Source: Leeuwenhoekiella parthenopeia
GTDB taxonomy: Bacteria; Bacteroidota; Bacteroidia; Flavobacteriales; Flavobacteriaceae
Reading direction: 5' to 3'
DNA length: 45,639 nucleotides
Assembly: GCF_020782115.1 (NCBI RefSeq)
Contig: NZ_JAJGMW010000032.1
Coordinates: 1 to 45,639, forward strand
Shown here: positions 16,473 through 38,716 of the stretch, piece after piece
Position numbering within the stretch: the first letter of the stretch is position 1
Layout of the letters: each line of letters starts with the position of its first letter
Made by a program: the position numbers and the translations under genes
The notes under the pieces: generated by a model
Seen by the model: the letters and a program-made list of their open reading frames with translations, nothing else
What the model was told of the DNA's origin: nothing
Databases searched by the model: none

Positions 16473-19400
16473 ATGAAATTATTAAAAATTGATTTTCAAA
16501 ACATCAATTCCCTTCGTGGGGAACATCATATCGATTTTACCCAGGAACCCTTTCTGCAAAACAGTCTGTTTGCGATCACGGGACCTACCGGAAGCGGTAA
16601 AACCACGATTCTCGATGTGATCTCGCTGGCGCTTTTCAATCAGGTGCCGCGTCTGGGTAAAATGAGTACTAACGAAATCCTGAAAAAAGGTGCGATCCTT
16701 ACCCGCAATCAGAGCGAAGCTTTCGCCAAAGTAACCTACCGTTGCAAAGCCGGTATTTTTGCTTCTACCTGGTCTATCTCTACCGCCCGCACCGGAAATT
16801 TACGGGACTACCATATGGAGCTCGAAAATCTGGAAAGCGGTGCACTTTTAGACCTCAAAAAATCGGATGTGCCCGCTAAGAATGAAGAACTCATCGGGCT
16901 GAGCTACGATCAGTTTATCAAAAGTGTGGTATTGGCTCAGGGCGAGTTTGCCAAGTTTCTTCAGGTGCCCAAAAAAGAACGCGGGGCTTTGCTCGAGAAA
17001 ATAACCGGCACCGAAATCTACCGCCGTATTGGGCAGGAAGTGTTTCTGAAAAACAAAGAACGTGCAGCTGCTATTGATGCTAAAAAGGGCAAAATTGAAA
17101 CCTATAAAGAGCAATTATTAGACGAGGAAGTTTATAAACTGAAGCAAACCGAAGCCGAAAAACTACAGCAGGCACGTGAAGCAATTAAGTCGAAACTGGA
17201 ACGTCTGGGTAAGGAAATCGACCTAAAAACCAAGCTACAGCAGGAAGAAGCCGAGCTGGCTAAAACCGAAAACGAACTTAAGGAGCTACGAGTCCGCCAG
17301 CAGGAATTTGATGCCGAAAAAGGACTTAAACTGAAGCGGCATCAGGAGATTCAGGTATTTAGCGACGACCTCAACACCTGGCAAAGCCTTACCGAAAAAG
17401 TCAAAGACAAGCAAAGCGAAATCACGACAGCAAGCAAGGCGATCAAAACTGCTGAAGCAGAACGCAACCGACTTAAACATGAAATCAGCGAAATGTTTAA
17501 ACTGGATGTTTCATCTGAAAATTTTTCAGAAAAGCTGGAAGTTTACAAAAGCGAATTACGTAAGCTGATAGCGGAGCGCAATACCATCGCCACCAGTTTT
17601 ACCAATACCAAAACCCATCTCAAAAGTCTGGCATCGCCACTTCATTTTGACAGCGATCCTTCCGACTCTACTGCATTTGAGGCTGAAGTAAAGCGAAACC
17701 TAACCAGTAAACAGAAAACGTACGAGGAGCTTGAAACCCGTTTTGATCTCAAGAATCAGGCGGTAAGCGATAAAAAGGAAAAACTTCAACAACAACTGAA
17801 GCAATTGCGCCAGACTGAAAAAAGCGCCACTGCAATAGAGCATCTCAAGAGCGTCCTGCAGGAACGGCAAACCGAAGCCACACAAATCACAGAGCAACAA
17901 AAAGGTTTGCCTGAACAGCTGCATGTGTTAAAGACTCAGATCGAACTCAAAGAAGCTCAGCTCGAGGCTAAACAACAAAAATTGGAGATCGAGAATCTGC
18001 AAAAGCAACTCAGTGATTACCGCCGTGAATTAATCGATAATGAGCCCTGTCCCCTCTGTGGTGCGCTGCATCATCCGTATTCTGAAGATCTTTCGTTAGC
18101 AGAAAACGGACTCAAAACGGCAATTGACGTGCTAAAGCAGGAACTTAACGAGTTATCCCAAAAACGTATGGCCACCGAAACCTCGCTAAGCCAACTGGAA
18201 AAGCAGGAAAAACTCATTCAGGAGCGCATCAGCCTGGGGACTGCCCAGCTTAAAACCGAGCAGGAAAACTTTGATAGGGAATTTAAAGACCTTTTAAAAG
18301 AAGTTTCCGCAGGCAGTTTTAAAGATCTTGAAAACAGCCTTGAAGAACAGGAACGCCAGCTTAATCAGGCTGAAAACCTGCAAAATGAACTCAAGCTGTT
18401 GCACACCTTAAAAAGTCAGACCGAAGATCTGAATACGCTCCTAAAACAGGGAAAACATGTTTCTCATGAAATCGAAAAACACTTTACGGGGAAAATTTCA
18501 GAATTCGAGCATAAGATCAACAGCATCGAAATCGCCTGGAACCGCAATGAGCAAAACCTGCAACAGCAACAGCAGCTTTTAAAAGCAGCCGAGGCTACAG
18601 CGAAACAAGTACAGGAGCAGTTGAGCAAATTGAGCGAAAAGCTGACTGCTGCACTACAACAAAAGGGCTACGACTTCATCGAAAAGGCTTTACAACAGCG
18701 CTTACCGGCAGGAGAAGCACAGGCATTGGCTAACGAGCATCAAAATTTACAAAATGCCTTGCTTCGCCTTAATACCTTACACGCCAAACTTAAAGAAGCT
18801 ATTGCCGGCCTAAAAGAAACCGCCGGTGAAATACCTCTCGAGGAACTGAAACAACAGCAGCACGAGAATAATGAAGCCCTAACAAAAAATGAAACGGCAT
18901 TTAATGAGGTTTCGCGATTGCTTAAAAACCAAAAACAAAACCTAGAAGCCATTGAGCAACTGCAGCAGGAAATAAAGACCAGTATTGAAGAATCCAGACA
19001 CTGGTACATTCTCAAGGAATTAATCGGCGACTCTAAAGGAGACAAATTCAACAATTTCGCTCAGGATCTTACCTTACAGCAATTACTGCTTTTGGCCAAT
19101 AAACGTCTGATGCAACTTACAGACCGCTATCGTATTGATCAGCCGGGTGATGAAGAAGACGATAGTCTGGTTGCCATTGATGAGCATATGGGCGGGCAAC
19201 GCCGCTCCATCAAAACCCTGAGCGGTGGCGAGACTTTTATTTTGAGTCTGGCGCTGGCATTGGCCTTGTCTGATTTGGCTTCGCGAAATATTGAAATCAA
19301 CAGCCTTTTTATTGATGAAGGTTTTGGCACCCTCGACCCGGAAACCCTTGATCAAACCCTCGATACCCTTGAAGTGCTACAAGCAGAATCGTCCAAAATG

Positions 19401-19502
19401 ATTGGAGTTATCAGCCACGTAGACAGTCTGAAAGAGCGTATCGCCACCCAAATTCAGCTTACGCAGAACGGACAGGGATATAGCACCTTAAAGGTGGTTT
19501 GA
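16473..19502 (+). CDS. sbcC: SbcC, Rad50-like SMC ATPase of the SbcCD exonuclease
   Basis: This 1009-residue protein is the ATPase partner of SbcD. Walker A is GPTGSGKTT at 37-45, and the signature and Walker B are LSGGETFILSLALA and LFIDEGFGTLDP (Asp948, Glu949). Between them are two long coiled-coil arms rich in Gln, Glu, Lys and Leu. At the apex sits the zinc hook CPLCG (Cys526 and Cys529), through which two complexes join. The length is normal for the family. The gene ends GYSTLKVV. A second, diverged copy of this 3' end lies about 530 bases downstream, beyond one accessory gene. Confidence 0.97.
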   Translation: MKLLKIDFQNINSLRGEHHIDFTQEPFLQNSLFAITGPTGSGKTTILDVISLALFNQVPRLGKMSTNEILKKGAILTRNQSEAFAKVTYRCKAGIFASTWSISTARTGNLRDYHMELENLESGALLDLKKSDVPAKNEELIGLSYDQFIKSVVLAQGEFAKFLQVPKKERGALLEKITGTEIYRRIGQEVFLKNKERAAAIDAKKGKIETYKEQLLDEEVYKLKQTEAEKLQQAREAIKSKLERLGKEIDLKTKLQQEEAELAKTENELKELRVRQQEFDAEKGLKLKRHQEIQVFSDDLNTWQSLTEKVKDKQSEITTASKAIKTAEAERNRLKHEISEMFKLDVSSENFSEKLEVYKSELRKLIAERNTIATSFTNTKTHLKSLASPLHFDSDPSDSTAFEAEVKRNLTSKQKTYEELETRFDLKNQAVSDKKEKLQQQLKQLRQTEKSATAIEHLKSVLQERQTEATQITEQQKGLPEQLHVLKTQIELKEAQLEAKQQKLEIENLQKQLSDYRRELIDNEPCPLCGALHHPYSEDLSLAENGLKTAIDVLKQELNELSQKRMATETSLSQLEKQEKLIQERISLGTAQLKTEQENFDREFKDLLKEVSAGSFKDLENSLEEQERQLNQAENLQNELKLLHTLKSQTEDLNTLLKQGKHVSHEIEKHFTGKISEFEHKINSIEIAWNRNEQNLQQQQQLLKAAEATAKQVQEQLSKLSEKLTAALQQKGYDFIEKALQQRLPAGEAQALANEHQNLQNALLRLNTLHAKLKEAIAGLKETAGEIPLEELKQQQHENNEALTKNETAFNEVSRLLKNQKQNLEAIEQLQQEIKTSIEESRHWYILKELIGDSKGDKFNNFAQDLTLQQLLLLANKRLMQLTDRYRIDQPGDEEDDSLVAIDEHMGGQRRSIKTLSGGETFILSLALALALSDLASRNIEINSLFIDEGFGTLDPETLDQTLDTLEVLQAESSKMIGVISHVDSLKERIATQIQLTQNGQGYSTLKVV

Positions 19503-19524
19503 TAAATTCTTTAATATTAAAATA

Positions 19525-19998
19525 ATGAATAAGCAATTAGACTCCATTACATTTCACCACAAGAAAACCCCATTAATGATAAGGTTTTTTCTAGGTTTAT
19601 TAGTGTTGGTCTGCGCGCTTATTCCGATAATTGTTTTGACTGTGGTAGCTCTCAATCGTAAAGGTCTGCATATTGGTATTTTTCTTGCCTTCTTCCTTTT
19701 TTGGGGACTTGGCTTTATGATATTGCGCATCTTTTTATGGAATTCTTTCGGAAAAGAAATTCTTTATCTTCAAAAAGATAAAATTATATACTTGGCAGAT
19801 TATAAATACTTCAGAGATGCTCGACAGGAAATTGAGATTGAAGAGCTAGAAGCAGAAATTGTTTATAGTGAAACAACTAATGGAGCAGGAACTCTTCGAC
19901 TAAAAAACGGAAAAACAACAATTGATACCGTGTTGGAAACTCCTTTGGAAAACCTGCTAAATCAATTGTATAAAATCCAAAATGTATATAATTCCTAG
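19525..19998 (+). CDS. Small two-helix membrane protein of unknown function (cargo gene behind sbcC)
   Basis: The protein has 157 residues. Two membrane helices (about 18-43 and 51-72) are followed by a soluble, probably cytoplasmic, domain with a beta-alpha pattern (ILYLQKDKIIYLADYKYF, then NGAGTLRLKNGKTTIDTVLE, and a final amphipathic helix). The layout resembles small PH-like membrane proteins. I do not recognise a family. The gene is clearly more AT-rich than sbcC. It starts 22 bases after the sbcC stop and is followed by a decayed second copy of the sbcC 3' end, which marks it as inserted. Immunity-type proteins can look like this, but nothing here proves it. Confidence 0.72.
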   Translation: MNKQLDSITFHHKKTPLMIRFFLGLLVLVCALIPIIVLTVVALNRKGLHIGIFLAFFLFWGLGFMILRIFLWNSFGKEILYLQKDKIIYLADYKYFRDARQEIEIEELEAEIVYSETTNGAGTLRLKNGKTTIDTVLETPLENLLNQLYKIQNVYNS

Positions 19999-20033
19999 CT
20001 AAAACATCTCTAGTATCTGAACTAATTAAAATC

Positions 20034-20075
20034 ACGAAAAACGGATAGGGATATAGCACGCTCAAGGTGGTTTAG
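20034..20075 (+). repeat. Second, diverged copy of the sbcC 3' end
   Basis: These 42 bases align without gaps to 19461-19502, the last 13 codons and stop of sbcC. Translated in the matching frame they read TKNG, a stop, then GYSTLKVV and a stop, against TQNGQGYSTLKVV in sbcC. Two codons of the shared part differ only synonymously (ACC/ACG, TTA/CTC), and the stop codon is TAG instead of TGA. Weaker protein-level similarity (LIKI against QIQL) reaches about 20 bases further upstream. The copy looks like the remains of a related allele, not a fresh tandem duplication. Confidence 0.85.
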
Positions 20076-20112
20076 ATATTTAATTTTATATTGCTCGGAT
20101 AATAATCTTTCT

Positions 20113-30368: not shown

Positions 30369-31025
30369 ATGACCAAGGCCGAGAAGGTTAGCTTTGTTAT
30401 AGATACGTTAAAGCGCCTGTATCCCCAGATTCCCATTCCATTAGACCACAAAGATCCCTATACCCTGCTTATTGCGGTTTTGATGAGTGCCCAAAGCACC
30501 GATGTCAAGGTAAACCAGATCACGCCCCTGCTGTTTGAGGTAGCAGATAATCCCTATGAAATGGTAAAGCTTACGGTGGAAGAAATACGGGAAATCATAA
30601 AACCCGTAGGTTTATCGCCTATGAAGGCCAAAGGTATTCACGGCCTCTCCCATATTTTGATTGACAAATACAACGGAAGGGTTCCGGAAAGTATTGAAGA
30701 ACTCGAGCAATTGCCTGCCGTAGGTCATAAGACCGCCAGCGTGGTAGTGGCACAGGCTTTTAATATTCCGGCTTTTCCGGTAGATACACACATACACCGC
30801 CTGATGTACCGCTGGGGACTGACCACCGGTAAAAACGTGGTACAAACCGAAAAAGATGCCAAGCGCCTCTTCCCCGAATATTTGTGGAATGACCTGCATT
30901 TACAGATCATCTGGTACGGGCGTCAATACAGTCCTGCGCGCGGCTGGGATCTGGAAAAAGACATCATCACCGCAACTATAGGTCGCAAAAAAGTGATTGA
31001 AGAGTGGAACAAAGGAAGGAAGTAA
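30369..31025 (+). CDS. nth: Endonuclease III, DNA glycosylase/AP lyase, without the Fe-S cluster cysteines
   Basis: The 218-residue protein removes oxidised pyrimidines and cuts at abasic sites. The helix-hairpin-helix is LEQLPAVGHKTASVVV, with catalytic Lys121, and the catalytic acid is Asp139 in FPVDTHIHRLMYRWGL. The C-terminal loop of most Nth proteins holds four cysteines (C-x6-C-x2-C-x5-C) binding 4Fe-4S. Here that part reads YGRQYSPARGWDLEKDI and no cysteine is present, so the cluster is absent. The 106 bases at its 3' end are repeated, with four synonymous changes, about 0.6 kb downstream beyond an accessory gene. Confidence 0.95.
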   Translation: MTKAEKVSFVIDTLKRLYPQIPIPLDHKDPYTLLIAVLMSAQSTDVKVNQITPLLFEVADNPYEMVKLTVEEIREIIKPVGLSPMKAKGIHGLSHILIDKYNGRVPESIEELEQLPAVGHKTASVVVAQAFNIPAFPVDTHIHRLMYRWGLTTGKNVVQTEKDAKRLFPEYLWNDLHLQIIWYGRQYSPARGWDLEKDIITATIGRKKVIEEWNKGRK

Positions 31026-31038
31026 AGCCGTTGGTTTT
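30933..31038 (+). repeat. 3' end of nth, first copy of a 106-base direct repeat
   Basis: This is the native last 31 codons of nth plus 13 bases after the stop. It pairs with 31550-31655 at an offset of 617, with identity at 102 of 106 positions. The four differences are all in third codon positions of the nth frame and silent: Pro CCT/CCC, Thr ACC/ACT, Ile ATA/ATT and Asn AAC/AAT. Confidence 0.97.
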
Positions 31039-31052
31039 TTTAAGATTCAAAG

Positions 31053-31538
31053 ATGGTCAAAGAAGATCTTCATATCTATTTGAAAGCAGAAACAAGGCAA
31101 TTGCTCGAATTGGCCAAATCAAGGTCGCTATACCCAGTTTCAGAAAACTGTCTTTATATAACCAGCAAAATTGAAAATAATTCAAACGAGAACTTTCTTG
31201 AAGTAAGAAAACTTAGAAAAAGAAAAAATAAAGACAAAAAGCCAAGGTTCTTAAATGAAGTGGTCGCAGAACTTACTCACTTGTACGAAGACTTGTATGA
31301 TATAAATCTATTCATCTACAAATCTTCAAAAAATATAAGTCTTGTAGAAATTCAGTACTTTCTAAAAAGTTCTCTTGATAAAGAATACCATAAAAAAGTT
31401 AGCCAAGATTCCCCGATGATACATTCCAAGTTAGCCATTCCTCCTTATGTAGAAGGAGATAAACAAATGTTTGATCTTAACTGGGAATTAGGTGGATTCA
31501 AACACCAGTGGAAACTTTTTTGGTGGAAGATATGTTAA
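31053..31538 (+). CDS. Unknown 161-residue protein (cargo gene behind nth)
   Basis: The protein opens MVKEDLHIYLKAETRQLLEL. It has a lysine-rich middle (VRKLRKRKNKDKKPRFLNEV), a helical segment around LTHLYEDLYDINLFIYKSS, and a Trp-rich C terminus (GGFKHQWKLFWWKIC). There is no signal peptide or membrane helix, and I recognise no family. The gene is much more AT-rich than nth. It starts 27 bases after the nth stop and ends 11 bases before a second copy of the nth 3' end. This is the same arrangement as the 157-residue gene behind sbcC, so both look like inserted cargo. Function cannot be assigned. Confidence 0.72.
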   Translation: MVKEDLHIYLKAETRQLLELAKSRSLYPVSENCLYITSKIENNSNENFLEVRKLRKRKNKDKKPRFLNEVVAELTHLYEDLYDINLFIYKSSKNISLVEIQYFLKSSLDKEYHKKVSQDSPMIHSKLAIPPYVEGDKQMFDLNWELGGFKHQWKLFWWKIC

Positions 31539-31549
31539 TACGTTTATTA

Positions 31550-31655
31550 CCCGCGCGCGGCTGGGATCTGGAAAAAGACATCATCACTGCAACTATTGGT
31601 CGCAAAAAAGTGATTGAAGAGTGGAATAAAGGAAGGAAGTAAAGCCGTTGGTTTT
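31550..31655 (+). repeat. Second copy of the nth 3' end
   Basis: This non-genic copy of nth codons from PARGWDLEK to the stop, plus 13 downstream bases, begins in mid-gene with no start codon. It keeps the reading frame and stop intact. Because all four differences from the native copy are silent, it diverged while still part of a working nth gene, most simply in another strain or species, and arrived by recombination. Confidence 0.93.
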
Positions 31656-31739
31656 ATTTATTTAAAATGTGGAATTCCGTAAGTCGGGTGTTCAAATAAC
31701 TAGTAAGTTTATAGAATTTGAAATTATTTCTCAAAGTTT

Positions 31740-32359
31740 GCTAGCGCGAGCGTCTCGCTCGTGTAGCATAAGTCAGTATTAAGAATGAGCCGAAAATATA
31801 AATTTCACAATCTATCTGGAGCATACTTCATAAGTTTTGCTACGGTATACTGGTTGGACGTTTTTACCCGGCAGGAATATTTCAACGTATTGACGGAAAG
31901 TATAACTTATTGCAGGGCTAAAAAAGGTATGGAGGTATTTGCTTATTGCTTTATGCCTAATCATGTTCATTTAATTTTTAGATCAGCTAATGATGATCCT
32001 TCAGGATTGATTAGAGATTTTAAAGGATTTACAGCGAGAAAACTCATAAAAACAATAAAAGACAATCCAAAGGAAAGCAGAAAAGAATGGTTATTATGGA
32101 TGATGAAGCGTGCGGGTACTAAGAATAGTAATGTAAAAGAACTTCAGTTTTGGCAGCAGCACAATAATCCCATCGAACTGTGGAGCACTAAAGTAATTCA
32201 GCAAAAGATAGACTATATCCATAACAATCCTGTCAAAAGCGGTTTTGTAACAAATCCTGTAGATTGGAAGTATAGCAGCGCGAGAAATTATCAGGAAGAT
32301 CAAACAGTTTTGGAAATAGATATTTGAGGTTAGACCACGAGCAGGATGCTCGCGCTAGC
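31740..32359 (+). mobile_element. RAYT element with flanking REP hairpins
   Basis: The left boundary is GCTAGCGCGAGCGTCTCGCT and on to 31763. The right boundary (32336-32359), read in reverse complement, begins GCTAGCGCGAGC and ends GCTCGTG like the left one, so the two are inverted. Each contains a hairpin: CGAGCG-TCT-CGCTCG on the left and CGAGCA-GGA-TGCTCG on the right, preceded by the same GCTAGCG guide-like tag. This is the organisation of REP-associated tyrosine transposase units, where the enzyme recognises the tag and hairpin foot. The element sits behind the second nth copy. Confidence 0.88.
31785..32327 (+). CDS. REP-associated tyrosine transposase (Y1_Tnp, IS200-like)
   Basis: This is a 180-residue single-strand DNA nuclease/transposase of the RAYT class. 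It opens MSRKYKFHNLSGAYFISFATVY. The metal-binding HUH motif is MPNHVHLIF (His60 and His62), and the catalytic tyrosine is Tyr144 in KIDYIHNNPVKSGFV. DWKYSSARNYQ near the end is a standard RAYT signature. All active-site residues are present, so it is probably functional. It should cut and join REP hairpins such as the pair on either side, and may spread REP sequences rather than itself. It is AT-rich relative to the housekeeping genes. Confidence 0.93.
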   Translation: MSRKYKFHNLSGAYFISFATVYWLDVFTRQEYFNVLTESITYCRAKKGMEVFAYCFMPNHVHLIFRSANDDPSGLIRDFKGFTARKLIKTIKDNPKESRKEWLLWMMKRAGTKNSNVKELQFWQQHNNPIELWSTKVIQQKIDYIHNNPVKSGFVTNPVDWKYSSARNYQEDQTVLEIDI

Positions 32360-32463
32360 AATTTTTTATCAGGCATTAATGACAATTAATCCTAAATAAT
32401 TATCATTTTTCTATTTGATTATAAACTACATTAGATTTCAATAACACGAATTATTCAATGTTC

Positions 32464-33140: not shown

Positions 33141-33320
33141 CATTCTATTCATTTTCTTTGCTTGTCCAAAGAAAACGAATCAAAAGAAAAGACACTTTTT
33201 CTTAGGTCTTTTTGTCCTTTAGGGGCAAAACCGCAGTAAATCCCCTAAATTTTCTCCAAGGCTTCAAAAATTTTTAACGGGTATTTCCAGCTATACTGAA
33301 GAAAAAGGAGACTAAAGAAT
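33141..33320 (-). repeat. Dispersed intergenic repeat, copy A (inverted relative to 38361-38531)
   Basis: Read on the minus strand, this segment matches 38361-38531 along its whole length with scattered differences. Shared blocks include AGCCTTGGAGAAAATTTAGG, GCGGTTTTGCCCCTAAAGG and TTCGTTTTCTTTGG, then AAGCAAAGAAAATGAA. The short reading frame over it (33057-33239) looks like a product of the repeat, not a gene. The flanking DNA to 33420 is AT-rich and featureless. Confidence 0.85.
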
Positions 33321-33420
33321 TAAATAATAGATATTATTTGAAAAATTCAATTTAGTAAAATAGTTAATTAAAGCTTCGTCGCTTCTTTACCTTTCCACAA
33401 AACTGATTGAACACTAGCTA

Positions 33421-35204: not shown

Positions 35205-37988
35205 ATGATCGTAGACGTTTCTAAAGCTGACCCTAAAAAGAATATCATCATCAAGGGGGCAAAGCTGCATAACCTTAAAAATATCAATACCATCATCCCG
35301 CGCAACAAGCTCGTGGTGATTACCGGCTTGTCGGGTTCGGGGAAATCAAGCCTTGCGTTTGACACCCTGTATGCCGAAGGGCAGCGCCGCTATGTGGAGA
35401 GTTTATCCTCTTACGCGCGGCAGTTTTTAGGGCGTCTCGACAAACCGAAAGTGGACTATATAAAAGGTATCGCTCCCGCAATTGCAATTGAGCAAAAGGT
35501 AAACAGTACCAATCCGCGGTCTACTGTGGGCACCTCTACCGAAATTTACGATTACCTCAAACTGCTTTTCGCCCGTATCGGCAAGACCTACTCCCCCATT
35601 TCGGGCGACGAGGTCAAAAAAGATACAGTGACCGATGTGGTGAATTACATCAAAACCTTTGAAGAGCGCAGCAAGCTGTTGCTCCTCGCTCCTTTTATTG
35701 TAGAGGAAGGCCGAAAGATTGAAGAAAAGCTCAACATCCTGCAGCAACAGGGCTATGCGCGTATAAAGGTTAATGACGAGGTAGTGCGTATTGAAGAAGC
35801 CGGAAGCATTACCGCAACAGACAAACTCTTTCTGGTGGTGGACCGAATCATCACCAAAGACGATGAGGACTTTGAAAACCGCCTCGCCGATGCGGTGCAA
35901 ACAGCCTTTTTTGAAGGTAAGGGCGAATTGTTTATCGAAGATTTGGCTACCGGCAAGCAACGGCAGTTTAGCAACAGTTTTGAGCTGGACGGGATGCAAT
36001 TTCTGGAGCCCAATGTACACCTGTTCAGTTTCAATAACCCCTACGGGGCGTGCCCTACCTGCGAAGGTTACGGAGATGTGATTGGGATCGATGAAGACCT
36101 GGTGATTCCCAATACCGCGCTTTCGGTTTACGAAAATGCCGTATTCCCCTGGCGAGGAGACAGTATGAGCTATTACCGCGATCAGCTTGTCAATTCCGCC
36201 TATAAATTCGATTTCCCCATTCACAAACCCTATTTTGAACTGAGTGATGCTCAAAAAGAGGTGTTGTGGAACGGAAACCAGTATTTTGAGGGTATCAATC
36301 AGTTTTTTGAATTTCTGGAATCCAAAGCTTATAAAATTCAAAACCGCGTGATGCTGTCGCGCTACCGCGGAAAAACCAAATGCAAAACCTGTGGTGGCAA
36401 ACGCCTGCGTAAGGAAGCGAATTACGTGAAGATCAGCAACACGACCATTACCGATCTGGTTGCCCTGCCACTCAACAAAGTAGCCGATTTCTTTAAAAAC
36501 CTCGAACTGAGCGAGCACGATGCTAAAATTGCCAAACGCCTGCTCACCGAGATTGAAAGCCGCCTCGAATTCCTTTCGAAAGTGGGGCTTAATTACCTCA
36601 CGTTAAACCGGAAGTCCAACACACTTTCGGGTGGAGAGTCGCAGCGCATCAATCTAGCAACTTCACTGGGGAGCAGCCTGGTGGGATCGATGTATATTCT
36701 TGACGAACCCAGTATAGGCCTGCATCCTAAAGACACCGAGCGTCTTATTGAAGTACTTAAAAGCCTACGCGATCTGGGTAATACCGTGATTGTGGTGGAG
36801 CACGACGAGGACATTATGAAAGCCGCAGATGAGATCATAGACATAGGCCCCGAAGCCGGAACCTATGGTGGTAACGTAGTGGCCACAGGTACCTACGACG
36901 ACATTCTTAAAAGCGAATCGCTTACCGCGAAATATCTAAATGGCACTATGGAAATTAAAGTGCCGGCAAAGCGCCGCACTTCTAAATACTATGTAGACGT
37001 AATCGGTGCACGCGAAAACAACCTGAAAAATATTGATGTACGCTTTCCACTGGGAGTTTTTGTGGCCGTAACCGGGGTTTCGGGTAGTGGCAAGAGTACG
37101 CTGGTTAAAAAGCTGCTCTACCCTGCTATGCTTAAGGAAACCGGTGGTTACGGGGAGAAAATGGGTCAGATGACCGGGATTGAAGGCAAGTTTGACAACA
37201 TCAAGAACATCGAGTTTGTAGATCAGAATCCTATCGGTAGATCGTCACGTTCCAATCCGGTTACCTACATCAAAGCCTATGATGATATCCGTTCACTATA
37301 TGCCGATCAGAAACTGAGTAAGATTCGCAATTTCCAAACCAAGCATTTTTCGTTTAATGTAGATGGCGGCCGCTGCGAAAACTGTAAAGGTGAAGGCGAA
37401 GTGACTATCGAAATGCAGTTTATGGCCGATGTGCATCTGGAATGTGAAGTGTGCAAGGGCAAACGTTTTAAAAAGGAAGTGCTGGAAGTCACCTTTGCAG
37501 ATAAAAACATCGACGACATCCTCAATATGACTATTGATGATGCCATCGCCTTTTTTACCGAAAACAAGCAGGACAAAATCACCCGGAAACTCAAGCCTTT
37601 ACAGGACGTAGGTCTGGGCTATGTGACCCTTGGCCAGAGTTCGTCTACCCTTTCCGGTGGAGAAGCCCAGCGTATCAAACTGGCGTCCTTTTTGGTAAAG
37701 GGAACCACCAAAGAGAAGAACCTGTTCATATTCGATGAGCCTACCACCGGACTGCATTTTCACGATATTCAGAAATTGCTGGCTTCGTTTGAGGCACTGA
37801 TTAAAAATGGACATTCCATTCTTGTGGTGGAGCATAATCTGGATTTGATCAAATGCGCCGATCATGTGATCGATTTGGGTCTGGAAGGCGGCGAAAACGG
37901 GGGTTACCTCATCGCTTCCGGCACCCCGGAAGAAGTTGCTAAAAACAAAAAATCCTTTACTGCGGAGTATTTGAGGGAGAAGCTTTAA
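35205..37988 (+). CDS. uvrA: UvrA, damage-sensing ATPase of nucleotide excision repair
   Basis: From 35205 the protein has 927 residues, opening MIVDVSKADPKKNIIIKGAK. It carries two ABC ATPase halves: Walker A motifs GLSGSGKSSLAFDT and GVSGSGKSTLVKKLL, signatures TLSGGESQRINLA and TLSGGEAQRIKLA, and Walker B segments YILDEPSIGLHP and FIFDEPTTGLHF. It loads UvrB onto damaged DNA. The second zinc module is intact (CENCKGEGEVTIEMQF, then CEVCKGKRF), and so is CKTCGGKRL. The first module is incomplete: CPTC is present at 283-286, but the preceding CxxC pair is replaced by FELDGMQFLEP. The earlier ATG at 35163 is rejected because the promoter box overlaps it. Confidence 0.98.
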   Translation: MIVDVSKADPKKNIIIKGAKLHNLKNINTIIPRNKLVVITGLSGSGKSSLAFDTLYAEGQRRYVESLSSYARQFLGRLDKPKVDYIKGIAPAIAIEQKVNSTNPRSTVGTSTEIYDYLKLLFARIGKTYSPISGDEVKKDTVTDVVNYIKTFEERSKLLLLAPFIVEEGRKIEEKLNILQQQGYARIKVNDEVVRIEEAGSITATDKLFLVVDRIITKDDEDFENRLADAVQTAFFEGKGELFIEDLATGKQRQFSNSFELDGMQFLEPNVHLFSFNNPYGACPTCEGYGDVIGIDEDLVIPNTALSVYENAVFPWRGDSMSYYRDQLVNSAYKFDFPIHKPYFELSDAQKEVLWNGNQYFEGINQFFEFLESKAYKIQNRVMLSRYRGKTKCKTCGGKRLRKEANYVKISNTTITDLVALPLNKVADFFKNLELSEHDAKIAKRLLTEIESRLEFLSKVGLNYLTLNRKSNTLSGGESQRINLATSLGSSLVGSMYILDEPSIGLHPKDTERLIEVLKSLRDLGNTVIVVEHDEDIMKAADEIIDIGPEAGTYGGNVVATGTYDDILKSESLTAKYLNGTMEIKVPAKRRTSKYYVDVIGARENNLKNIDVRFPLGVFVAVTGVSGSGKSTLVKKLLYPAMLKETGGYGEKMGQMTGIEGKFDNIKNIEFVDQNPIGRSSRSNPVTYIKAYDDIRSLYADQKLSKIRNFQTKHFSFNVDGGRCENCKGEGEVTIEMQFMADVHLECEVCKGKRFKKEVLEVTFADKNIDDILNMTIDDAIAFFTENKQDKITRKLKPLQDVGLGYVTLGQSSSTLSGGEAQRIKLASFLVKGTTKEKNLFIFDEPTTGLHFHDIQKLLASFEALIKNGHSILVVEHNLDLIKCADHVIDLGLEGGENGGYLIASGTPEEVAKNKKSFTAEYLREKL

Positions 37989-37990
37989 TC

Positions 37991-38032
37991 AATGTAGAAT
38001 TAAGAATGCTGAATTATGAGTTCTTTTCGCTC
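37991..38032 (+). repeat. 42-base direct repeat, copy 1 (7-base period)
   Basis: The segment begins AATGTAGAATTAAGAATGCT and is identical over 42 bases to 38675-38716. Internally it has a 7-base rhythm (AGAATTA, AGAATGC, TGAATTA). It starts two bases after the uvrA stop codon. Confidence 0.95.
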
Positions 38033-38057: not shown

Positions 38058-38360
38058 TACTTTAAATATTAATTCCTTACATATCTTTATAGTTTGAAGA
38101 ATGTTCCTTTCTTTTTTAGCTCGTGTCATTTGTATTATACGGGAACTCGTGAACCTCGTGCCTCGGTTTGCATTGCCCAAAAAAGAAACAAAAAACGCTA
38201 GGCTCACAAGACGATATCTAAATTTATCGTTCACTGCACTGCATGCGCTTAACTCGTCCGCTATCGCGGCCTCAAACAGAACCGCCTGCGACCTTACGCT
38301 CACTTCAAATTTTAGGATATCTTCTTGTAGGCCGATTGTAGAATGGAACTAAGAATATCA

Positions 38361-38531
38361 TTCTTTAGTCCTCTTTTTCTTCAGTATAGCAAGAAGTTTC
38401 CGTTAAGAATTTTCGAAGCCTTGGAGAAAATTTAGGAAATTTATTGCGGTTTTGCCCCTAAAGGCAAAAATACCTAATAAAAAGGCTCCTTTCTTTTGGT
38501 TCGTTTTCTTTGGAGAAGCAAAGAAAATGAA
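38361..38531 (+). repeat. Dispersed intergenic repeat, copy B (inverted relative to 33141-33320)
   Basis: The segment begins TTCTTTAGTCCTC and contains AGCCTTGGAGAAAATTTAGG, TTTTGCCCCTAAAGG and TTCGTTTTCTTTGG. It is the reverse complement partner of 33141-33320, with scattered mismatches and small gaps. Together the two copies bracket the lipoprotein, sigma-factor and uvrA genes. Confidence 0.85.
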
Positions 38532-38565: not shown

Positions 38566-38674
38566 TACCCCTAAGTCAAATTTGGGGTAATTAGATAGTT
38601 GCTTGTTCTTTTCTTGGCTGGCACTACTCTGACTGCTGTAAAAGGTTTCTATGCAGAAGCAAACCGTTTAAGTA

Positions 38675-38716
38675 AATGTAGAATTAAGAATGCTGAATTA
38701 TGAGTTCTTTTCGCTC
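38675..38716 (+). repeat. 42-base direct repeat, copy 2
   Basis: This segment is identical to 37991-38032 over 42 bases, 684 bases downstream and in the same orientation. Recombination between the two would delete the repeat island. Confidence 0.95.

Follow-up and report, generated by a model that had tools for sequence, protein, structure and literature searches.

Prophages e14 and phage 21 in icd carry a replacement 3′ end of the gene together with an integrase. In integrons, a gene cassette consists of one small gene with a site 3′ of it. Inserts of accessory genes between long direct repeats of the target are described for Helicobacter pylori, where the pattern is often linked to restriction-modification genes (PMC1643837, as excerpted). 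In Escherichia coli, linear DNA is reported to have two main fates, one of them being ligation followed by a single crossover (PMC3240628, as excerpted), and the same excerpt describes homology-facilitated illegitimate recombination, in which one homologous anchor admits foreign DNA.

In Leeuwenhoekiella parthenopeia (G000), a window of 45,639 nt (that is, the whole stretch of DNA that was analysed) harbours sbcC and nth, each followed by a small gene and then by a second copy of its own 3′ end. At just short of even chances, the gene behind sbcC is the cargo of a homology-anchored insertion, in which a short foreign fragment would have entered by a single crossover in the gene end.

Repeated gene ends at sbcC and nth

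The features of the two sites are collected in Table 1. The terminal codons of sbcC are ACG CAG AAC GGA CAG GGA TAT AGC ACC TTA AAG GTG GTT TGA, and the second copy reads ACG AAA AAC GGA TAG GGA TAT AGC ACG CTC AAG GTG GTT TAG. As the preliminary description had it, the last 42 nt of sbcC recur behind a 157-residue gene with two silent codon differences, TAG for TGA and an internal TAG; one amino-acid change (CAG to AAA) had been overlooked. The silent change of TTA to CTC is a double one, and there the sister species that lacks the sbcC cargo (G005) is nearly identical to the first copy. The repeat finder reported a 50-nt pair at 80% identity for sbcC (19451-19500 and 20024-20073) and a 109-nt pair at 95% for nth (30933-31041 and 31550-31658). 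The nth site lies 11.5 kb beyond the sbcC site, and its cargo starts 27 nt after the nth stop.

Table 1. Features of the sbcC and nth sites in the window.
Feature	Position	Strand	Basis or remark
sbcC, host gene, intact, 1009 aa	16473..19502	+	AAA_23 and SbcC_Walker_B matches
First copy of the repeated end (last 42-50 nt of sbcC)	within 16473..19502	+	repeat pair D4
22-nt flank brought with the cargo, after the sbcC stop	19503..19524	+	unlike the flank in sister G005 (score 20)
Cargo 1, 157 aa, GC 0.335	19525..19998	+	ORF; without Pfam match
Second sbcC end copy (13 codons and stop, one internal stop)	20034..20075	+	alignable from about 20024
Native sbcC flank, displaced behind the second copy	20076..20112	+	directly 3′ of the sbcC stop in G005
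nth, host gene, intact, 218 aa	30369..31025	+	HhH-GPD match
Cargo 2, 161 aa, GC 0.323	31053..31538	+	ORF; without Pfam match
Second nth end copy (93 nt of gene and 16 nt downstream)	31550..31658	+	repeat pair D1, 95%; then native flank as in G010

Among the 13 genomes of the genus, exactly one sbcC match was found in 12 and two in none. A tail copy of sbcC was present in 2 of 12 genomes (within 820 nt downstream in the case of G005 and mostly within 1.5 kb elsewhere), and one of nth in 2 of 13 (in the stored downstream DNA, 1.5 kb at most loci); additional nth matches do not adjoin the first nth, tail copies excepted. L. parthenopeia and L. blandensis (G003) carry the same cargo at the same sbcC end.

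Several other repeats were observed in the window. Right behind the nth tail copy is an IS200-like (Y1_Tnp) transposase ORF (31785-32327) with 31-nt inverted arms (31733-32366), which we take to be a REP-associated transposase from its appearance. A dispersed repeat of ~200 nt occurs at 33183-33325 (−) and 38355-38497 (+); several Leeuwenhoekiella have dozens of copies in each genome (with 51 matches in L. parthenopeia and 43 in L. blandensis), and the insert that follows the YceI-like gene of L. blandensis is filled by it too. Moreover, a 49-nt direct repeat (94%; 37984-38032 and 38668-38716, 684 nt apart) adjoins a 30-nt repeat (38031 and 38539).

Occurrence of gene-tail copies and nature of the cargos

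Gene-tail copies were sought by matching the terminal 150 nt of every ORF of at least 100 aa against the 3 kb that follow on that strand, at score thresholds of 40 (L. parthenopeia), 36 (L. blandensis, cargo-homology loci and E. coli) and 34 (G008). The L. parthenopeia sample comprised 1,203,639 of 4,418,806 bases (27%), including the window. Seven of its 899 genes scored at least 40 (sbcC 52 and nth 192), versus none of 749 at that level, with a maximum of 34, when tails were compared with the DNA downstream of a different gene. At that threshold there were no matches among 899 reverse-complemented tails, 4 among 901 heads compared with upstream DNA, and 3 of 673 and 2 of 674 for middles; the head and middle matches, some of which were inspected closely, look like paralogues apart from one head-type case. 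Null draws came from other contigs only in L. parthenopeia; in the remaining sets neighbours were possible, and null values reached the threshold there (2 in L. blandensis, 3 in the cargo-homology loci, 3 in G008 and 2 in E. coli), mostly as near-self matches with scores up to 330.

After inspection, four of the seven were tail-only cases with a gene between the copies: nth, sbcC, a thioesterase-like gene and an hsdR-like gene (the latter two named by reading the sequence); the other three were two tandem paralogues and the head-type case. The window had been chosen for its two cases, nth and sbcC, and the thioesterase-like and hsdR-like cases are unselected. The thioesterase-like host (181 aa; contig C4) is followed by a cargo of 213 aa at 155 nt after its stop, and the hsdR-like host (contig C12) by one of 291 aa at 25 nt.

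For L. blandensis, 800,000 of 4,244,565 bases (19%) were scanned, and 6 of 607 genes scored at least 36. Two are paralogues by script, and one (locus L188) is an internal match that was excluded by eye despite the script's tail-only label, as it ends 83 nt before the stop. Three are tail-only: sbcC (in a stretch picked on purpose), a TonB-type receptor with a 91-nt tail copy and a cargo 21 nt after the stop, and a YceI-like gene of 239 aa whose insert is a dispersed repeat without an ORF of at least 60 aa (the last two named by reading). In G008, 9 of 331 genes scored at least 34 with no clear tail-copy case, five script-labelled tail-only matches being excluded by eye (two internal repeats in L203, a decayed paralogue in L220, and one each in L209 and L218). 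In 300 kb of E. coli MG1655, 0 of 248 genes reached 36. Cargo homology supplied a further 36 loci from named genomes, in which 4 of 240 genes reached the threshold, namely sbcC of L. blandensis again, two internal repeats in L157 and one match in L128 beside attC-resembling repeats; the matches in L157 and L128 were excluded by eye despite the label.

Outside the chosen stretches, the two Leeuwenhoekiella species yielded two cases each, in about 1.16 Mb of L. parthenopeia and 0.78 Mb of L. blandensis. That small genes recurrently settle behind intact host genes was suggested earlier and is borne out: two further unselected sites emerged from the 27% scan and more from L. blandensis, the host gene being whole, and a recurrent host-sparing route is present at modest frequency in two species. 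A dedicated mechanism did not emerge with it. The similar cargo spacing noted at the window sites (22 and 27 bases after the sbcC and nth stops, respectively) extends to a range of 21-27 nt in five cases, and fails at the thioesterase-like gene with its 155 nt.

All tail copies found are about 40-110 nt long. We found no fixed att core per host gene: for the TonB-type gene, the copies begin 91, 71 and 48 nt before the stop in L. blandensis, G002 and G001, respectively. Behind the TonB end in G002 (L255) and G001 (L232 and L238) lie larger inserts with lipoprotein-like ORFs and others that we presume to be toxin-like, followed by the tail copy, which in L255 adjoins a conserved convergent gene.

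The four L. parthenopeia cargos share a low GC (0.335 for sbcC, 0.323 for nth, and 0.332 and 0.316 for the others), with only 2.5-4.3% of 915 genes lower. Low GC and kinship of the intervening genes had both been raised as possibilities, and kinship did not emerge. Cargo 1 is matched in 15 of 397 genomes of the family (its own counted, several matches being weak), and cargo 2 in 8 of 397 (its own and 7 others). Searches of eight proteins (including the cargos of sbcC, nth, the hsdR-like gene and the TonB-type receptor) against NCBIfam and Pfam gave none above the curated cut-off, and PADLOC, which prints no cut-off, gave a single match (E 0.019) for seven proteins. Cargo 1, with a weak match to the STM3941 family (16.9 bits versus a cut-off of 40), is predicted to contain two membrane helices and a PH-like domain; its model is of high confidence (pLDDT 89.7) with weak PDB matches (best EROS, E 0.008; a bacterial PH protein, E 0.018). 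The model of cargo 2 is poor (pLDDT 53).

Some relatives of both cargos reside in attC-like surroundings. Of seven loci with cargo-2 relatives, attC-like motifs are on both sides in four, upstream only in one and on neither side in two; in L046 (G007), the relative is directly behind an apparent C-terminal piece of an integron integrase, with attC-like ends on both sides. By reading, the cargo-1 relatives in L048 and L051 lie between attC-like repeats. An integron cassette, suggested by the G007 relative, was considered for the window and rejected: there is no attC-like motif pair at the nth cargo, and none was seen by eye at the sbcC cargo. The two window sites showed no recombinase and no att or attC site. 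The sbcC and nth inserts each contain one ORF of at least 80 aa, without Pfam match, and hence no integrase gene among ORFs of that size; an enzyme might act in trans. Elsewhere in L. parthenopeia (C20:1500-1922; L086), short repeats near two small ORFs resemble the ends of attC cassettes.

Allelic divergence of the copies and ownership of the flanks

Across ten pairs of copy and host end, differences number 20, 11 and 56 at codon positions 1, 2 and 3, respectively. The excess at the third position (56 of 87) is significant versus one third (P value=3 × 10−9) and versus one half (P value=0.005), the latter being our rough figure for one copy evolving as a gene and the other freely; the ten pairs are not fully independent (nth is from two sister species, and sbcC from two species maybe of one origin), the hsdR-like count takes in positions shifted by a 3-nt indel, and the L. 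blandensis sbcC count takes in the part right of the crossover. When the two indel-bearing pairs are left out, 50 of 70 differences are at the third position (P value=2 × 10−4). Per pair, the counts are, for example, 1/1/14 for the TonB-type receptor of L. blandensis and 0/0/4 for nth of L. parthenopeia; the two pairs with indels, thioesterase-like (3/2/1; one of six at the third) and hsdR-like (3/3/5; five of 11), have no third-position excess. In its simplest reading, the excess suggests that two functional alleles met and that the DNA came from a related lineage. Rather than as plain target duplications, the copies behave by these counts as alleles of two lineages. A diversity-generating retroelement, which likewise repeats a gene 3′ end around a small gene, was rejected as well, the differences being mostly at third positions and not adenine-directed, and the sbcC and nth inserts each being one ORF without Pfam match.

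A mirror case at a gene head was found at C12:184313-186994 in L. parthenopeia, where a truncated 105-aa copy of the head (307 nt, 90.6%) is followed by two ORFs (170 and 100 aa) and the full 315-aa gene. Its differences are 7/5/17, and the stretch with the two ORFs has a GC of 0.30.

The flanks of the two copies were compared with those in cargo-free relatives. In G005, the sbcC stop is followed by the flank that stands behind the second copy in L. parthenopeia (score 216, versus 20 for the first-copy flank); likewise, the second-copy flank is matched better than the first by G006 at sbcC of L. blandensis (126 versus 28) and by G010 at nth (84 versus 27). At the YceI-like gene of L. blandensis, the second flank is matched by G002, G007, G010, L. 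parthenopeia and G005 (115-184 versus 20-33), and G006 matches the first flank instead (96 versus 17). Because relatives without cargo run the host gene straight into the second flank, that flank is native and the first arrived with the insert. Nothing of the target is deleted, and the native flank is retained right from the stop codon, at sbcC and nth of L. parthenopeia and at sbcC and the YceI-like gene of L. blandensis. The thioesterase-like gene has a first flank similar to that of G004 (62) and a second with a weak similarity to that of G005 (55), with G007 and G010 poor for both.

The gene ends themselves were assigned in the same way. At sbcC of L. parthenopeia, the first end corresponds to the allele of G005, with a single difference in 60 nt, and the left part of the second end does not. 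A first copy that is resident on the left and donor on the right, with the reverse in the second, is found at this sbcC, partly at the thioesterase-like gene, and in mixed form at sbcC and the YceI-like gene of L. blandensis. Just left of the second sbcC copy, the sequence is common to L. parthenopeia and L. blandensis. Identical runs of 27 and 23 nt mark the right end of two diverged pairs (P value=4 × 10−4 and 1 × 10−3), those in three other pairs being not or hardly significant.

Certain loci have a more complex history. In G006, the first flank of the YceI-like locus occurs together with an end that resembles the second copy of L. blandensis, therefore this locus needs more than one event. 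The sbcC locus of L. blandensis, where both ends are native-like in the middle, needs more than one event as well. The empty sbcC site of G005 could represent a pop-out instead of the pre-insertion state. A comparison of sbcC between L. blandensis (L011) and G006 (L013) showed a mosaic pattern, with 86-98% identity in the first 2 kb and 76-87% in the last 1 kb.

Insertion route and relation to known systems

Our reading of these cases is a single-crossover (‘ends-in') integration of short foreign fragments that carry a related species' gene end plus cargo, which the mirror head case also fits. A fragment comprising the end of a gene, its downstream flank and the cargo would enter from a related species, and its gene end would pair with the resident end. 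One crossover near the stop codon, an act to which the observed junctions point, would then link the resident gene to the donor flank and cargo. Joining of the fragment's outer ends, as a circle before the crossover or afterwards, would set the donor gene-end piece between the cargo and the resident flank, and the resulting order would be whole gene, donor flank, cargo, donor gene-end piece and resident flank. The identical right-end runs of two pairs fit an exchange near the stop. Since both ends encode nearly the same residues, the host protein would stay intact, and a single crossover with joined outer ends would account for the arbitrary copy lengths and for the mirror case. Later recombination in the same ends may hand the cargo on or pop it out, as the states of sbcC in L. 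parthenopeia, L. blandensis and G005 suggest. From the sequences we infer the joining, the direction and the fragment, and a single route may not account for all cases. Ku was considered as the joiner and rejected: it is present in 8 of the 13 genomes and absent in L. parthenopeia, L. blandensis, G005, G004 and G010, therefore Ku-based joining is not available today in the first three.

Certain observations count against a single crossover. The copies are uniformly short (about 40-110 nt), and generic homologous recombination should also leave longer ones; our guess is that longer, less stable repeats were lost. The thioesterase-like and hsdR-like pairs, with indels and without third-position excess, and the dispersed repeat that makes up the YceI-like insert also speak against it, as do the more complex histories of the YceI-like locus and of sbcC in L. 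blandensis, the possible pop-out in G005 and the absence of Ku from L. parthenopeia, L. blandensis and G005. Homology-facilitated illegitimate recombination would pair a homologous exchange inside the host gene with an illegitimate join in the resident tail, leaving the second copy as a resident remnant and the host gene chimeric. We regard this as unlikely, if worth serious thought. The left edges of the copies vary, the identity of L. blandensis sbcC to that of G006 falls from 86-98% in the first 2 kb to 76-87% in the last 1 kb, and neither TonB-type copy of L. blandensis is clearly nearer to G006 (82 and 80 of 91), all of which speaks for such a route. However, it usually deletes a stretch of about the size of the insert (PMC3240628, as excerpted), and in these cases the native flank is retained from the stop codon onwards. 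Moreover, the first sbcC end of L. parthenopeia, not the second, is the sister's allele, and independent joins would not give L. parthenopeia and L. blandensis the sequence that they share left of the second copy. A long target duplication, made from the host end by the insertion itself and decaying afterwards, would give the same anatomy as the H. pylori pattern (PMC1643837, as excerpted) and would suit the nth copies, which are 95% alike; the third-position excess (as in the TonB-type pair, with 14 of 16) and the double silent TTA to CTC change in sbcC, where G005 is nearly identical to the first copy, make it improbable. A tandem paralogue reduced to its end by deletion of the body is hardly credible: such paralogues do occur in the samples (C23, C1 and L185, plus the decayed third copy in L220 of G008), but no genus genome has two sbcC matches and 12 of 13 have exactly one, the other nth matches are not beside the first except as tail copies, and the single sbcC of G005 is joined to the native flank.

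The uniform shortness of the copies would sit more easily with a recombinase acting in trans on each core gene end as its own site, comparable to attC or 3′-end islands, as would a crossover near the stop in the two significant cases, a cargo start 21-27 nt later in five cases, and the same cargo at the same gene end in L. parthenopeia and L. blandensis. Against it, the sbcC and nth inserts are one ORF each without Pfam match, the host ends have no obvious common motif by eye, the left edges vary for one and the same host gene, and a head-type mirror case exists. We consider such a recombinase a rather long shot. The same low standing applies to the gene-end cassettes that it would move, that is, single-gene mobile units that use a core gene's final 40-110 nt for docking, arrive at the stop codon, restore the gene in doing so and have cargo families in common with integron cassettes; if they were real, every core-gene end would be a potential capture port. 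Ordinary recombination with the DNA of relatives is likelier than a dedicated system, in a form that is rarely pointed out.

If arisen by a single crossover, tail copies would be a readable scar that marks both the entry point of a small accessory gene and the core gene that anchored it, and a diverged allele in the copy would point to a relative as the source of the DNA. By looking for such scars, one could trace the capture of orphan genes without integrase or transposase. Should the rate in the two Leeuwenhoekiella species hold, gene gain by this route would be real, if modest, and would leave the host gene unharmed. In the literature, as judged by titles and abstract openings with subscription journals thinly covered, no account of gene-end copies behind cargo in Flavobacteriia was found.

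The sites resemble each of the known systems in part. As with e14 and phage 21 in icd, the incoming element would supply the host gene with a new end that differs silently and would displace the old one; those, however, are phages with an integrase, whereas the inserts here are of 0.5 kb with no ORF that has a family match. The integron gene cassette is alike in its one small gene and 3′ site, and relatives of both cargos lie in attC-like cassettes, yet the nth cargo has no attC-like motif pair and the flanking copy here is host coding sequence. Like the H. pylori inserts, those at sbcC, nth and the other tail cases have a direct repeat of the target on both sides; the second copy, however, does not appear to derive from the target itself, as 56 of 87 differences are at third positions (this being weakest for nth, 95% alike), and the alleles of two lineages with unknown small cargos differ from the restriction-modification genes often found there (PMC1643837, as excerpted). 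Homology-facilitated illegitimate recombination shares the single homologous anchor; the deletion of similar size that it usually brings (in general, not absolutely; PMC3240628, as excerpted) is not seen here. Ligated linear DNA that integrates by a single (Campbell-type) crossover, as reported for E. coli conjugation, likewise duplicates the shared stretch and inserts the rest without a dedicated recombinase or a deletion (PMC3240628, as excerpted); in Leeuwenhoekiella, the integration would be a natural one between species, by way of a gene end of about 40-110 nt and with one small gene.
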